A program made the translations under genes and the position numbers. DNA of 64,000 bases from Akkermansia muciniphila (GTDB taxonomy: Bacteria; Verrucomicrobiota; Verrucomicrobiia; Verrucomicrobiales; Akkermansiaceae), in NCBI RefSeq assembly GCF_040616545.1, contig NZ_CP156688.1, positions 2,914,001 to 2,978,000 of the forward strand, read 5' to 3'. The notes below the pieces were generated by a model. That model did not search any database. It worked only from the letters and a program-made list of their open reading frames with translations, and had not been told where the DNA came from. Position 1 is the first letter of the stretch; each line of letters begins with the position of its first letter. This document shows positions 35,098-41,305 of this stretch, one piece after another.

Positions 35098-35135
35098 TCG
35101 TGTCTAAATGGAAACGATTTACCTGGACCACGCAC

Positions 35136-36356
35136 ATGAAGCGCACTCAGCAACCTTCCATGCAGGAGGCGGAGCAGGCCTCCCTGAACCATGAGATATT
35201 AACCACCTGGCGCCCGGGGGAGACCCTGGGGGAACACATGGAGCGGCGCGGCGTCAGTCGGCGTGAGTTCAACAAGTGGTGCCTGAAGATGATTGCCCTG
35301 ATGGGCGTCGCCACCGTGACCGGTGGCGTTTCCAACGCCCAGGAGATTGCGGACAAGATGGCCGCCCTGAAACGCCCGGTGGTCATCTGGCTCCAGCTCC
35401 AGGAGTGCACCGGGTGCCTGGAAAGCACCATCCGCAGTTATAATGAGGAGATCGGGGACATGGTGCTTTCCGCCGTCTCCATGCCTTACGTGGAGCTTCT
35501 GATGGCTCCCTCCGGGGACGCGGCCAACGCCGCCCTGGAAGAGGCGATCAAGGAACCCCATATCCTGGTCATCAACGGTTCCGTTCCGCTCAATGACGGC
35601 GGGGTGTACTGCACCGTGGCCGGGGATACGGTGGAGCACATGCTGCGCCACTGCGCGGAAAACGCCTCCTACATCCTGGCGGTGGGCTCCTGCGCGTACT
35701 TCGGCTCCATCCAGGCCGCCCGCCCCAACCCCACCGGGGCCGTGGGCATCCGGGACATCCTGACGGACCGCACGGTCATCAACGTGCCGGGCTGCCCGCC
35801 CATCGGGGACGTGATTACCGCCGTCATCATGTACATCCTCACCTTTGACCGCGCTCCGGAGTGCGACCTGGAAACGCGCCCGCTGATGGCGTACGGCACC
35901 CGCATCCATAACAACTGCCCGCGCCGCGCCCACTTTGACGCCGGCCAGTTCGTCAACGTGTTTGACGACGAGAACGCGCGGGAATGCTTCTGCCTGTACA
36001 AGGTGGGCTGCAAGGGGCCGGATACGTTCTCCCCCTGCCCCATCGTGAAATGGAACGGGGGCGTCAGCTTCCCCATCCAGTCCGGCCACCCCTGCATCGG
36101 CTGTACGGAGCTGTACTTCTTTGACCGCATGACTCCCTTTTACAAGACGCTGCCGAACGTGAACGGCTTCGGCGTGGAGGCGTCCGCCAACGTGATCGGC
36201 GCGGTGGGCGTAGCGGGCGCGGGCGCGGCCATCGCCGCCCATGCCGTGGGCTCCGCCATCCATTACAAGCGGCAGCACATGAAGGAGGAGGCGAACGTAT
36301 CCCTCCCCGCCTTCGGTGACGCGCCCGGCTCCCCGGACAAGGAAACGGAAGAATAA
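35136..36356 (+). CDS. hyaA: [NiFe] uptake hydrogenase small subunit
   Basis: This subunit carries the Fe-S clusters that pass electrons from hydrogen to the membrane. The 406-residue precursor has a twin-arginine signal with SRREFNK at residues about 41-47, so the folded complex is exported. The proximal cluster begins with QECTGCLES, the standard two-cysteine form; the extra cysteine of oxygen-tolerant enzymes (CTCC) is absent. Further ligands appear in GSCAYFGSIQAARPNP, NVPGCPP, RAHFDAGQF and CIGCTE. A hydrophobic C-terminal anchor (GAVGVAGAGAAIAAHAVG) precedes a basic end. It is first in an operon with the large subunit, cytochrome b, protease and HypA. Confidence 0.96.
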   Translation: MKRTQQPSMQEAEQASLNHEILTTWRPGETLGEHMERRGVSRREFNKWCLKMIALMGVATVTGGVSNAQEIADKMAALKRPVVIWLQLQECTGCLESTIRSYNEEIGDMVLSAVSMPYVELLMAPSGDAANAALEEAIKEPHILVINGSVPLNDGGVYCTVAGDTVEHMLRHCAENASYILAVGSCAYFGSIQAARPNPTGAVGIRDILTDRTVINVPGCPPIGDVITAVIMYILTFDRAPECDLETRPLMAYGTRIHNNCPRRAHFDAGQFVNVFDDENARECFCLYKVGCKGPDTFSPCPIVKWNGGVSFPIQSGHPCIGCTELYFFDRMTPFYKTLPNVNGFGVEASANVIGAVGVAGAGAAIAAHAVGSAIHYKRQHMKEEANVSLPAFGDAPGSPDKETEE

Positions 36357-36385: not shown

Positions 36386-38143
36386 ATGAGCAATTACACA
36401 TCAGCGGACGTTCCGGAATCCAGCCGCGTGGTCATTGACCCCGTGACGCGCATTGAAGGCCACCTGCGCGTGGAGATGGAGGCCGGAGACGGCGTGATCA
36501 AGAACGCCTGGACTTCCACCACGCAGTACCGCGGCATTGAGGTGATCGCCTGCAAGCGGGACCCGCGGGACGTATGGGCCTTTGTGGAACGCATCTGCGG
36601 CGTCTGCACGGGCACGCACGCCATTGCGGCCCTGGCCGCCGTGGAGGACGCCCTGCAATACCCCGTTCCCGTCCAGGCGCGCCTCATGCGGGACCTGGTC
36701 AGCGGCGCCCTGGGCATCCAGGACCACGTCATCCACTTTTACCAGCTCCAGGCCATGGACTGGGTGGACGTGATGTCCGCCCTGAAGGCGGACCCCAAGG
36801 AGACCGCCGCCATCGCCAAGTCCCTTTCAGACTGGCCCCTGTCCTCCGCCTCGTATTTTGCGGGCGTGCAGCAGAAGCTGAAGGATTCCATCGCCCACGG
36901 GCAGTACTCCATTTTCACGAACGGCTACTGGGGCCACCCGGCCTACAAGCTGCCGCCGGAGGTGAACCTGCTGGGCGTGGCGCATTACCTCCAGGCCCTG
37001 GTCTGGCAGCGGGACATGATCAAGATCCACACCATCCTGGGCGGCAAGAATCCGCACCCGAACTTCCTGGTGGGCGGCATGGCCTGCGCCATTAACATGA
37101 ACAATGACCAGGCCATCAACCAGTTTGCCCTGAGCTACCTGAAACAGCTCGTGCAGACCTGCCATGACTTCATCCACAAGGTATATTACCCGGACATCGT
37201 GGCCATTGCCGGATTTTACAAGGATTACGCCCACATAGGCGCGTCCAACCCCAACTTTTTCTGCACCGGGGACCCGTCCGAGATCAACACCGGAGCTCCC
37301 GCTGGCAAGGGAACGATCAAACCCGGCGTGCTGCTGAACGGGGACTATAAAAACGTGCTCCCGTTTGACCAGGACAAGATCAAGGAATTCGTCACCAGCG
37401 CCTGGTACAAGTACACGGAAGGCCGGGACGCGGGCCTGGCCCCGTATGACGGGGAGACGAACGCGGACTACAACGGCCCGCGCCCGCCCTACAAGTGGCT
37501 TTCCGACCACCCGCAGTACACCTGGGTGAAGGCCCCGCGCTATGACGGCCACGCCATGGCCGTGGGCCCGAACGCCCGCATGATGATCGGTTACGCCCAG
37601 GGGGTGCCCGCCATCGTGGAACGGGTGGACGCCGCCTGCGACAAGCTGGGCATTCCCCGTGACAACGCCTTCCTGAACTCCACGCTGGGCCGCGTGTACG
37701 GCCGCTCCCTGGACGCCCTGATCAACGTGGACATGATGGTAAACCAGCTCCAGGAGATGACGGACCGCATCAAGAACGGGGAGACCGCCACCTTCAACCC
37801 GGAAAAATGGGAGCCGGAAACCTGGCCCTCCTCCTGCAAGGGCGTGGGCTGGGTGGAGGCGCCCCGCGGCAGCCTGAGCCACTGGGTGCGGATTGAAAAC
37901 GGCCAGACGGTGAATTACCAGGCCGTGGTTCCCAGCACCTGGAACAGCTCCGGCCGCGACGCGGAGGGGCAGATGGGGCCGTACGAGTATTCCCTGGCCC
38001 ATACCGGAAAACACCCGCTGGTGGACCCCACCCGCCCGGTGGAACCCCTGCGCACCGTTCACAGCTATGATCCGTGCCAATCCTGCGCCGTCCATTTGTT
38101 TGACGAGGAAGGGGAGGCCATTCTGACCAGACAGGACCCGTGA
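36386..38143 (+). CDS. hyaB: [NiFe] uptake hydrogenase large subunit
   Basis: This is the catalytic subunit that splits hydrogen at the Ni-Fe site. The 585-residue protein has the N-terminal pair of metal cysteines in RICGVCTGTH (about residues 68-77) and the C-terminal pair in DPCQSCAVH (about 561-569). The 15 residues after that histidine are the extension removed by the maturation protease encoded two genes downstream. The motif VIDPVTRIEGHLRVE opens the protein. It lacks a signal peptide, as expected for a subunit exported with the Tat-bearing small subunit. Its stop codon overlaps the start of the next gene. Confidence 0.97.
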   Translation: MSNYTSADVPESSRVVIDPVTRIEGHLRVEMEAGDGVIKNAWTSTTQYRGIEVIACKRDPRDVWAFVERICGVCTGTHAIAALAAVEDALQYPVPVQARLMRDLVSGALGIQDHVIHFYQLQAMDWVDVMSALKADPKETAAIAKSLSDWPLSSASYFAGVQQKLKDSIAHGQYSIFTNGYWGHPAYKLPPEVNLLGVAHYLQALVWQRDMIKIHTILGGKNPHPNFLVGGMACAINMNNDQAINQFALSYLKQLVQTCHDFIHKVYYPDIVAIAGFYKDYAHIGASNPNFFCTGDPSEINTGAPAGKGTIKPGVLLNGDYKNVLPFDQDKIKEFVTSAWYKYTEGRDAGLAPYDGETNADYNGPRPPYKWLSDHPQYTWVKAPRYDGHAMAVGPNARMMIGYAQGVPAIVERVDAACDKLGIPRDNAFLNSTLGRVYGRSLDALINVDMMVNQLQEMTDRIKNGETATFNPEKWEPETWPSSCKGVGWVEAPRGSLSHWVRIENGQTVNYQAVVPSTWNSSGRDAEGQMGPYEYSLAHTGKHPLVDPTRPVEPLRTVHSYDPCQSCAVHLFDEEGEAILTRQDP

Positions 38144-39312
38144 AAACGATTCTCATAGACAATGACCTCACCCTGGCGGTGGAGGACGCCATTCCGGCCA
38201 CTCCGGCCAACACGCCGCAGGAGGTGCTGGCCCTGGCCGTGTGCGCCTCTCCGGACGGCAGCGCGGACCCCGGGGATCTGGCCCTGCTCCACGCCGCCAA
38301 GGAGCGGAACGTGGCGCTCCCGTACGCGCAGCAGAAGGATTCCTGGCAGGCCCCCACCCGGGAAAGGCCGTACAGCACGGTCATGCTGAAAGCCGCGGAC
38401 AGGGAGGACGCCGCCCCCTTCATGGTGGCGCGCGGCAGCCTGAGGGCCCTGGAAAAGCTGTGTGAAGCGGGCCACCAGGAAAGGGAGAACATCAGGAAGG
38501 CCTTTGAGGAGTATTCCTCCTCCGGCTTTGAACCCGTGGCCATCGCCGTGCACCGCCCCGGCGCCCCGTGGCAACTGCTGGGCGTGGTGCCCATGCACGC
38601 CATGCGGGACGTCCGCAGCCTGTCCAAGGCCAAGGCGAACTTCCGCTACTTCCACGTATGGGACTGGCCGCTGCGCGTGCTGCACTGGACCTGGGTGTTC
38701 TGCATCATCGGCCTGGCGGCCACCGGCATCTGCATTGCGGAAGGGTGGTTCCTGAAGATGGGGGACCTGCACGGGGCCTTCCAGTTCGGCACGCTCCGCT
38801 TCGTGCACTACGCGCTGGGGTGGACCCTGGTGGTGGTGATGATGCTCCGCTTTTCCTGCTTCTTCATGGCGTCCAACAAGTACCAGAGCTTCCGCGCCCT
38901 TTTCCCCGTTTCCAGACAGCAGTGGAAGGACCTGTTCGCCACGGCGTGGGATTATGTGTGCGCCCGGAGCGCCCTGGCCCCCCGGTACATCGGCCACAAT
39001 CCCCTCCAGCAGTGGACGTACACGGGCGTTTACGTCCTGTTCACCACCATGGTGGTGACCGGGCTGGCCCTGTATGCCCTGTATGAGCCGCGCCACTGGT
39101 TTTACCACCTGTTCATGCCCCTGAATGACCTGATAGGCATTCCGTACGTGCGCCTGGTGCACCTGATCGGCATGTGGTGCTTCATCATCTTCGCCATGAT
39201 CCACGTGTACCTCTCCATCCTCTCCGGGAACGTGGACCGGGACGGCACCATCTCCTCCATGTTCAGCGGAGGGCGCTGGCTGCGCAAGGGCGTCAAATTC
39301 CGGGATGAATAA
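38140..39312 (+). CDS. hyaC: hydrogenase cytochrome b subunit with N-terminal P-type ATPase N-domain-like extension
   Basis: The C-terminal ~225 residues are a HyaC-type di-haem cytochrome b that passes electrons to quinone. They contain about four membrane helices and haem histidines in LRVLHWTW, LRFVHYALGW and RLVHLIGMW. The N-terminal ~165 residues are not part of that family. They resemble the nucleotide-binding domain of P-type ATPases: TPQEVLALAVCAS, DPGDLALLHAAKE, MVARGSLRALEKLCE (compare VxKGAPxxILxLC) and GFEPVAIAVHRPGAPWQLLG (compare GFRxLGVAxxxxxxWxxLG). The phosphorylation motif DKTGT is absent. The GTG start overlaps the hyaB stop codon (GTGA), so the fusion is read from the very start. 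The domain should be cytoplasmic. Confidence 0.93.
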   Translation: MKTILIDNDLTLAVEDAIPATPANTPQEVLALAVCASPDGSADPGDLALLHAAKERNVALPYAQQKDSWQAPTRERPYSTVMLKAADREDAAPFMVARGSLRALEKLCEAGHQERENIRKAFEEYSSSGFEPVAIAVHRPGAPWQLLGVVPMHAMRDVRSLSKAKANFRYFHVWDWPLRVLHWTWVFCIIGLAATGICIAEGWFLKMGDLHGAFQFGTLRFVHYALGWTLVVVMMLRFSCFFMASNKYQSFRALFPVSRQQWKDLFATAWDYVCARSALAPRYIGHNPLQQWTYTGVYVLFTTMVVTGLALYALYEPRHWFYHLFMPLNDLIGIPYVRLVHLIGMWCFIIFAMIHVYLSILSGNVDRDGTISSMFSGGRWLRKGVKFRDE

Positions 39313-39333: not shown

Positions 39334-39879
39334 ATGGAATCCGAGGAATATACGGAAGAACTCCGGGGCTGCCCCGTGAAGGGGAACGCCTATCCCGTGC
39401 TCGTGCTGGGCGTGGGCAACCCGCTCATGGGGGATGACGGCATAGGCGTGGAGCTGGCGCACCGCCTCCAGGAGCGGGATTACGGCCCGATGGTCCATGT
39501 GGAGGAAGGCGGAACGCTGGGCATGACCCTGCTGCCCCTGCTGGAGGACGCGGATACGGTCATCCTGCTGGACGCCGTGAAGACGGGCGCCACGCCGGGG
39601 AGCGTGGTCACCCGCAGCAGGGATGAAATCCCGCGCCATTTTTCCCACGTCATTTCTCCCCACCAGATAGGAATGAAGGAGGTTCTGGGCGCGGCCCAGC
39701 TGTGCGGCACCCTGCCGCGCGCCATCACGCTGGTGGGGGTGGAGGCGAGGCACACGGACTTCTGCCAGCCCATGTCCGCAGAGGTGCGGGGAGCCGTGCC
39801 GCAGGCGCTGGAACTGGTGGAAACCCTCATTTCCCGTGCGCTGGCGGAACAGGAGGCGCGGAAAGACGCCCATGCATGA
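39334..39879 (+). CDS. hyaD: hydrogenase maturation protease
   Basis: This endopeptidase removes the C-terminal extension of the large subunit after nickel insertion. The 181-residue protein has the family motif VLGVGNPLMGDDGIGVELA with the metal-binding acidic residue. DAVKTGATPG and the histidine segment SPHQIGMKEVL follow. An extra ~18 residues stand before the usual start. It lies 21 bases after the cytochrome gene and overlaps hypA by eight bases. Confidence 0.94.
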   Translation: MESEEYTEELRGCPVKGNAYPVLVLGVGNPLMGDDGIGVELAHRLQERDYGPMVHVEEGGTLGMTLLPLLEDADTVILLDAVKTGATPGSVVTRSRDEIPRHFSHVISPHQIGMKEVLGAAQLCGTLPRAITLVGVEARHTDFCQPMSAEVRGAVPQALELVETLISRALAEQEARKDAHA

Positions 39880-40213
39880 GGTAGGCATCATGGAAGGGGC
39901 GCTGGACATGGCCCGGCAGCTCATGGAAAAGAACGGGGGAACCCGGCTGATGCGCGTGCACATGACCGTAGGCAGCCTGAGCGGCGTGGTTCCGGAGGCC
40001 CTCCAATCCGCCTTCCTGGCCCTGAGAGACGCTTATGCGGCGCGGGACGCCTCCCTGGACGTCACCTGGGTGGAGGCCCTGTGCCATTGCGACGCGTGCC
40101 GCGCGGATTTTTTCTTCACGGAGCACGGCTACATCTGCCCCGGCTGCGGGGACCCCGCCCTGGCCATCCTGCGCGGGCGGGAGCTGGAGCTGACCCGCGT
40201 GGAGTGGGAGTAG
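39872..40213 (+). CDS. hypA: hydrogenase nickel incorporation protein HypA
   Basis: HypA delivers nickel to the hydrogenase large subunit. The 113-residue protein starts MHEVGIMEGAL, with the nickel-binding Met-His-Glu at the N-terminus. The zinc site has two CxxC pairs, in CHCDACRAD and CPGCGDP. The start at 39872 overlaps the end of the protease gene by eight bases, which implies translational coupling. hypB to hypF are not in the window. Confidence 0.95.
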   Translation: MHEVGIMEGALDMARQLMEKNGGTRLMRVHMTVGSLSGVVPEALQSAFLALRDAYAARDASLDVTWVEALCHCDACRADFFFTEHGYICPGCGDPALAILRGRELELTRVEWE

Positions 40214-40357: not shown

Positions 40358-41305
40358 ATGAGCAATATCAACCCATTCATTCTAACAGGGATGATGCCGC
40401 TTTCAGCCTCATCCATGAACCGCGTCTCCTACATGTGCCCGGTCACCATCAGCAATGACGTGGTGCAGGGCCAGACAGACATTCAGGATTCCCTCACCGT
40501 TGATTCCGGCGGAAATCTTTACATCATCAACGCTCCCGTTTACGTGGGAGGCCCCAACCAGCCGGACCACGGGCACGGCACGGCGCACCTGGTCATCCGG
40601 AACGGAGGCACCCTGACCCTCCTGGGCAACCTGCCGGACCACATGACCGTGTTTCTGGGCAGCAAGGCCAAGGGCAGCCTGGAGATCAACGGGGGGCGCC
40701 TGCTGATGGGACAGGGGCGCATCCTGGGCTCCCGGGAGCACGAAGGCAGGATCGTGATGACGGACGGCTGGCTGTTCGCCTCTGAAGTGGACTTGCCCGC
40801 CGAGAACTCGGAACTCATCATCAGGCACGGCCTGATGCGCATCCGTAAGTTTTCCGGGAACGTCTCCACCCACATTTACGGCGGCGTGCTACACGTGAAG
40901 GAGGAGGCCCATGCCAGCCGCATCCACCTGGTGGACGACGGTGTGCTGCTGCTGGGCAGCGTCACCAGCCAGCCTTCCGCGGACGTGATGGCGGGCGCGG
41001 GCATCAACTTCCGCGGGGACGGCGGCGCGCTGGTCATCCGCGTGCCCCATCCGGAAAACGCACTGACGCGCACGCGGGAGGCGGAGCATGTTTTTGACGA
41101 GCTGCTCAGAAGAGGCAAGCTTTTCCATGACAGCGAACCCATGACCAGCTTCCAGGGCTTCAACATGCGGGAATTCACCGGGCATGACAGCCTGACGTAT
41201 GCCGCCCTGCGCCCCGCCGCCCAACTGCGGGCGGAACAGAACCAGGTCACGCGCCTGCTGCACTCCTTCATGTACGGCGGTAGTGAGAAGGAACTGCCCA
41301 TCTGA
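40358..41305 (+). CDS. beta-helix-like repeat protein, unknown function
   Basis: The 315-residue protein has repeated strand-turn units such as LTVDSGGNLYIINAPVYVGG, LVIRNGGTLTLLGNL, GSLEINGGRLLMGQG and GRIVMTDGWLFAS. They are like the passenger beta-helices of autotransporters or adhesins. It has no evident signal peptide (the start is MSNINPFILTGMMPLS) and no outer-membrane barrel. The last ~90 residues are different, helical and charged. Export, if any, must use another signal. It stands alone with a strong terminator after it. Confidence 0.78.
   Translation: MSNINPFILTGMMPLSASSMNRVSYMCPVTISNDVVQGQTDIQDSLTVDSGGNLYIINAPVYVGGPNQPDHGHGTAHLVIRNGGTLTLLGNLPDHMTVFLGSKAKGSLEINGGRLLMGQGRILGSREHEGRIVMTDGWLFASEVDLPAENSELIIRHGLMRIRKFSGNVSTHIYGGVLHVKEEAHASRIHLVDDGVLLLGSVTSQPSADVMAGAGINFRGDGGALVIRVPHPENALTRTREAEHVFDELLRRGKLFHDSEPMTSFQGFNMREFTGHDSLTYAALRPAAQLRAEQNQVTRLLHSFMYGGSEKELPI

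Follow-up and report, generated by a model that had tools for sequence, protein, structure and literature searches.

The stretch of DNA analysed here (the window) comprises 64,000 nucleotides of the Akkermansia muciniphila contig NZ_CP156688.1, positions 2,914,001 to 2,978,000. It contains a [NiFe]-hydrogenase operon for which Pfam and NCBIfam profiles give the gene order hyaA-hyaB-hyaC-hyaD-hypA. The features of the operon and of the unusually long hyaC gene are as follows (window coordinates):

35100-36356, + strand: hyaA, [NiFe]-hydrogenase small subunit with a twin-arginine signal (TIGR00391, E = 4e-117)
36386-38143, + strand: hyaB, [NiFe]-hydrogenase large subunit (PF00374, E = 8e-205)
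38140-39312, + strand: hyaC fusion gene, 390 residues, P-type ATPase N-domain plus Ni/Fe-hydrogenase cytochrome b (ORF, Pfam, NCBIfam)
38140-38143, + strand: GTGA overlap of the hyaC start codon with the stop of hyaB (two divergent Akkermansia genomes have ATGA here)
38173-38598, + strand: P3A-type ATPase N-domain-like part of HyaC, residues 12-153 (TIGR01647, hhalign, Foldseek and VIA)
38599-38655, + strand: short basic linker, residues 154-172, at the place of the ATPase hinge DPPR (alignment)
38656-39276, + strand: cytochrome b with four transmembrane helices (PF01292, TIGR02125; His 182, 223, 341 and 355 invariant)
39334-39879, + strand: hyaD-type maturation protease (TIGR00072, E = 8e-41)
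39836-40213, + strand: hypA, nickel metallochaperone (PF01155, E = 1e-24)

The small subunit, large subunit and maturation protease provide the operon context expected for the HyaC/CybH protein of a group 1 [NiFe]-hydrogenase, and in one relative (G015) the operon order is unchanged and HyaB is 75% identical. The HypA match starts only at residue 13, so translation of hypA may really begin with the ATG at 39872. Directly 3' of hypA lies an ORF of 315 residues (40358-41305) without a Pfam match, whose counterparts in two other Akkermansia loci show 86-95% identity. In one Akkermansiaceae MAG (L010, 2986-4220), the hyaA match is split over two frames, an apparent frameshift that is perhaps an assembly error.

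The extended hyaC gene and its distribution

Residues 172 to 381 (approximately) of the hyaC product are an ordinary cytochrome b. PF01292 matches residues 173-377 above its cut-off (E = 1.8e-26), and TIGR02125 gives E = 3.4e-33 and 115 bits, slightly below its cut-off of 121.5 bits, which three relatives exceed. Hydrophobic stretches are found at residues 186-204, 216-245, 296-314 and 342-360. An alignment of this part with E. coli HyaC (4gd3 chain A, 235 residues) gives E = 7.5e-18; His 182, 223, 341 and 355, taken as the haem ligands, align with histidines of the E. coli protein and are invariant across the 19 loci described below. The window protein is a genuine HyaC whose domain architecture is new: it has the cytochrome b fold, the histidines, the position within hyaABCD and the N-in/C-in arrangement in common with E. 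coli Hyd-1 HyaC and with CybH of group 1, both of which lack the approximately 160-residue, putatively cytoplasmic N-terminal domain of Akkermansia HyaC.

A sequence-only reading of the window had proposed that extra residues precede the cytochrome and that they are read from a GTG overlapping the hyaB stop. Both proposals hold. Since the cytochrome part aligns from residue 11 of E. coli HyaC, approximately 160 residues of the window protein are extra and absent from ordinary HyaC, and the sequence stretches listed in that reading are all present in ORF 38140-39312. Members of the A. muciniphila group start the gene with GTG and two divergent relatives with ATG, each time at the hyaB stop. The extension frame is open in 19 of 19 loci (14 genomes plus five contigs from a related-locus search, two sets that partly overlap), with no frameshift, stop or large deletion, has dN/dS values of 0.09-0.32 and a GC3 of 0.88, which, together with the start at the hyaB stop, argues that the extension is translated. 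It is under purifying selection, and lineages with extensions that are only approximately 36% (35-37%) identical still retain it. The overlap with the hyaB stop in all start variants and the selection on the frame rule out a start-codon artefact. For comparison, dN/dS is 0.02-0.13 for the cytochrome part and 0.02-0.07 for hyaB; the extension evolves approximately 3 times faster than the cytochrome part and is the fastest of the three.

We surveyed genomes of Verrucomicrobiota for the fusion, and also examined E. coli HyaC and plasmid homologues. Among 76 Akkermansia genomes, hyaB is present in 14 and the fused HyaC in the same 14, while both are absent from the other 62. All hydrogenase-bearing genomes measure 2.7-3.5 Mb, compared with 1.7-2.8 Mb for those lacking the enzyme, which suggests that it was lost or gained clade by clade. 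A fifteenth match to the extension in this set proved to be a whole ATPase rather than a fusion. One Akkermansia MAG (G420; loci L062 and L093) has a complete P3A-type ATPase of 892 codons, and no P3A-type pump scored over the cut-off in the genome of the window.

Outside Akkermansia, the HyaC proteins of the other Verrucomicrobiota examined have no N-terminal extension, so that within this survey the extension is seen only in Akkermansia. Sampling 387 genomes across the order showed three members of a sister genus with a HyaC of ordinary length, its open frame comprising 251-276 codons and its match starting at query residue 163 or 167. Two long HyaC frames in other Verrucomicrobiota (427 codons in L069 and 386 in L084) result from read-through of the upstream frame and are not extensions. 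A 532-codon match in a sister genus is a broken, otherwise ordinary P3A ATPase and not a second fusion; this frame (L094, G705:C212:97000-105000) starts just before DKTGT, with the N-terminal third out of frame or missing. Plasmid hydrogenases gave no match covering at least 80% of the query, with the best matches lying mainly over the cytochrome part, and the cybH gene of a Bacteroidota (Parabacteroides) plasmid has an ordinary length of 738 bp, without extension. No relative of the extension was found on viral contigs.

A P3A-type ATPase N-domain at the N-terminus of HyaC

The first approximately 155 residues of HyaC are a P3A-type ATPase N-domain; they cover the segment that, in the pumps, directly follows the DKTGT site and ends at the hinge leading into the P-domain. 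In residues 1-165, the NCBIfam profile TIGR01647 (plasma-membrane H+-ATPase, P3A) matches significantly, with residues 12-152 on profile positions 302-439 (E = 2.8e-9). All 10 extension sequences tested match TIGR01647 and no other NCBIfam family. Pfam finds no match in residues 1-165 of the window HyaC, so routine annotation would miss the domain. Conversely, a profile of the extension detects pump-length frames of 831-896 codons in eight of 388 verrucomicrobial genomes (E from 1e-9 to 1e-13), and these frames carry DKTGT and TGD. A profile-profile comparison (hhalign) of the extensions with nine such ATPase N-domains gave a probability of 99.2 and E = 2e-19 over 139 columns. Scored with an HMM of nine N-domains from genuine verrucomicrobial P-type ATPases, the extensions reach 38-56 bits, whereas none of 2000 shuffles exceeds 6.1 bits. 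A sequence search of solved structures also yields two P3A chains, 5ksd and 7vh5, as weak matches.

The predicted fold agrees. An AlphaFold2 model of the isolated extension, made from only six input sequences, is of moderate confidence (pLDDT 61, pTM 0.61); the model of full-length HyaC was too poor for use (pLDDT 43.5). In a Foldseek search with the moderate-quality model of the extension, the named proteins among the matches listed are P-type ATPases, with SPCA1 and Pma1 among the best (best E = 5e-5) and TM scores of 0.35-0.55 when normalised by the query. VIA-align ranks the N-domain of Neurospora Pma1 (1mhs, residues 390-531) first, with Z = 10.1 and an rmsd of 3.2 over 133 residues. Profile, profile-profile, shuffle and fold evidence thus bear out the earlier suggestion of homology to a P-type ATPase N-domain, and its proton-pump-like flavour is borne out by TIGR01647 as the sole NCBIfam match.

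With P3A ATPases (TIGR01647; Pma1 and AHA2), the extension has in common the N-domain profile, the predicted fold between DKTGT and hinge, and the D-x-x-D, [KR]G and G[YF] motifs. Unlike these pumps, it has no phosphorylation aspartate, no P- or A-domain and no ion-transport membrane domain, Lys515 is replaced by Arg, and the Phe487 and Arg560 positions are changed. The DKTGT site is absent from the extension, as the sequence-only reading had stated, and the remainder of the protein is cytochrome b, not P-domain or transport membrane domain. The same reading had also considered the C-terminal hinge motif to be missing; here the claim has to be softened, as the hinge is altered but not wholly gone (GVVPMHAMRD versus GIIPMFDPPRDD).

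In a tree, the extensions come together as a single clade with long branches, from which no donor ATPase can be named. Since the extensions are a single clade, the data are consistent with one fusion event predating the split of the sampled Akkermansia lineages.

A cytoplasmic N-terminus is expected for HyaC. Lys and Arg residues together number 6 in the flank preceding helix 1, then 2, 6 and 2 in the three successive loops, and 6 at the C-terminus; by the positive-inside rule, this indicates an N-in, C-in topology. This charge pattern supports a location of the N-domain in the cytoplasm, in agreement with the earlier reading, while the hydrogenase works in the periplasm.

The nucleotide pocket and possible roles of the extension

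In SERCA, the ATP cleft consists of E442, F487, R489, K515, R560 and L562 (PMC7313052). Three motifs of the extension correspond to loops of this cleft:

38266-38286, + strand: DPGDLAL motif, residues 43-49, equivalent to D-x-I-D and the SERCA E442 loop (D43, G45 and D46 invariant)
38341-38379, + strand: SWxxPxxxRxYST motif, residues 68-80, equivalent to PFDPxxKRTEA and the SERCA F487 loop (alignment)
38425-38436, + strand: VARG motif, residues 96-99, equivalent to TKGA and the SERCA K515 loop, with Lys replaced by Arg (alignment)

The equivalents of E442, F487, K515 and R560 given here follow our own placement of these positions on the P3A sequences. In a gapless alignment, the E442 equivalent is D46, which is invariant and is Asp in P3A pumps as well; the K515 equivalent is the invariant R98. 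The F487 position (residue 70) is variable (Q, E, I or T), with an invariant Trp one residue earlier, at 69. At the R560 position (residue 131), the A. muciniphila clade has Glu or Gln and the divergent relatives G013 and G015 have Arg. The L562 equivalent is Val in the window HyaC. Given that the F487 and R560 equivalents are missing, classical ATP binding or sensing by the A. muciniphila extension is doubtful.

The three pocket-lining motifs nevertheless hold 15 invariant residues out of 29, compared to 22 out of 136 elsewhere in the extension (Fisher p = 1e-4, for sequences down to 35-37% identity), a test that is partly post hoc, since the alignment was known when the boundaries of the segments were chosen. 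The placement of the motifs is the best among 100 slid placements of the same pattern. Gly45, Trp69, Tyr78, Ser79 and Arg98 are invariant pocket-motif residues that are specific to the fusion. The concentration of invariance in the pocket motifs, often in fusion-specific residues, fits a pocket that has been re-tuned rather than abandoned. Since selection retains the extension while several ATP-holding residues are gone, it has probably been re-purposed as a module for sensing or docking.

What might such a module do? Without a phosphorylatable aspartate, a P- or A-domain or an ion path, the N-domain in HyaC would neither pump nor hydrolyse ATP by the P-type cycle. The rebuilt pocket (Arg in place of K515, F487 absent or displaced to a Trp, no R560 equivalent in A. 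muciniphila), together with the lack of P-type catalysis, makes a non-catalytic module most likely. Our preferred proposal, for which we see a little less than an even chance, is that the extension is a cytoplasmic regulatory module whose altered pocket would bind a ligand, nucleotide-like or otherwise anionic, and which would modulate either the passage of electrons out of the b haems to quinone or the assembly of the complex. The several lines of evidence for the domain, the co-occurrence with hyaB in 14 of 14 genomes and joint absence from the other 62, the purifying selection, the four intact histidines, the N-in, C-in charge pattern and the pocket-motif conservation speak for it; the loss of two canonical ATP contacts in A. 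muciniphila speaks against it, and the approximately 3-fold faster evolution would also fit a docking or scaffold role. The more specific version, in which an N-domain otherwise seen within ion and lipid pumps has been freed as a stand-alone regulator that senses a cytoplasmic metabolite and gates electrons from periplasmic H2 oxidation to the quinone pool, is speculative and rather unlikely.

Alternatively, the N-domain fold could do no more than bind proteins on the cytoplasmic side, for instance tethering the hydrogenase to another respiratory complex or helping to assemble the complex in the membrane. The partial loss of the canonical ATP residues, the faster evolution relative to the cytochrome part, the strict co-occurrence with the hydrogenase and the translational overlap with hyaB are all in line with such docking, which we regard as plausible though well short of even. 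However, conservation lies in the pocket motifs and not across another surface. Moreover, HyaB is exported together with HyaA via the Tat route, which makes a lasting cytoplasmic contact with HyaB unlikely.

A true ATP/ADP sensor, one that has kept the ability to bind adenine nucleotides and adjusts the electron output of the hydrogenase to the energy charge, is in our view improbable. In its favour, D46 and the Arg at the Lys515 position are invariant, an invariant Trp directly neighbours the Phe487 position, and the R560 equivalent is still present in the two most divergent relatives, whose extensions also give the highest scores against genuine ATPase N-domains. Yet the F487 position is variable in the gapless alignment, and the Glu or Gln at the R560 position in the A. 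muciniphila clade puts an acidic or neutral residue where the phosphate-contacting Arg sits. The cytoplasmic nucleotide sensor put forward in the sequence-only reading is best treated as a hypothesis; D46 and R98 are the SERCA cleft residues that are kept in equivalent form.

The relict adaptor offered there as the other option fares worse. A translated but functionless leftover of the fusion would account for the extension being the fastest-evolving part and for the partial loss of ATP residues, but is very improbable given dN/dS values of 0.09-0.32, intact frames in all loci, retention in all 14 hydrogenase-bearing Akkermansia genomes surveyed and persistence between lineages with highly diverged extensions. 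Chance resemblance, or a wrong start with the real protein beginning near residue 165, could appeal to the silence of Pfam on residues 1-165 and is contradicted by the profile, fold, hyaB-stop overlap and selection evidence to the point of being negligible.

The fusion of a hydrogenase cytochrome with a P-type ATPase N-domain looks undescribed: as the earlier reading had supposed, no description of it was found in the openly accessible literature searched. We know of no other P-type ATPase N-domain outside a pump, and the same literature yielded none. The nearest precedent found is the guanylyl cyclase-alpha of Plasmodium, which has an appended P4-ATPase whose activity is reported to be needed (PMC7858053). 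There, too, a P-type ATPase part is attached to an unrelated membrane enzyme, but it is a P4-ATPase rather than an isolated N-domain, and the enzyme and the domain of life are different. The Akkermansia HyaC would represent re-use at the level of a single domain with a clear physical setting, a cytoplasmic domain at the electron exit of a hydrogenase. Should the extension prove to bind a ligand, Akkermansia could link its H2 oxidation to a metabolite of the cytoplasm, and a metabolite-sensing gate, if real, would be a new kind of direct hydrogenase control in a major gut symbiont. At approximately 155 residues, the extension, missed by Pfam-based annotation, is small enough to be tested on its own.

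As regards the enzyme itself, the proximal-cluster motif of HyaA (35100-36356) is a plain CTGC and lacks the additional cysteines that O2-tolerant enzymes, E. coli Hyd-1 among them, possess. This suggests that the window hydrogenase is probably of the O2-sensitive kind, despite its HyaC-like cytochrome.
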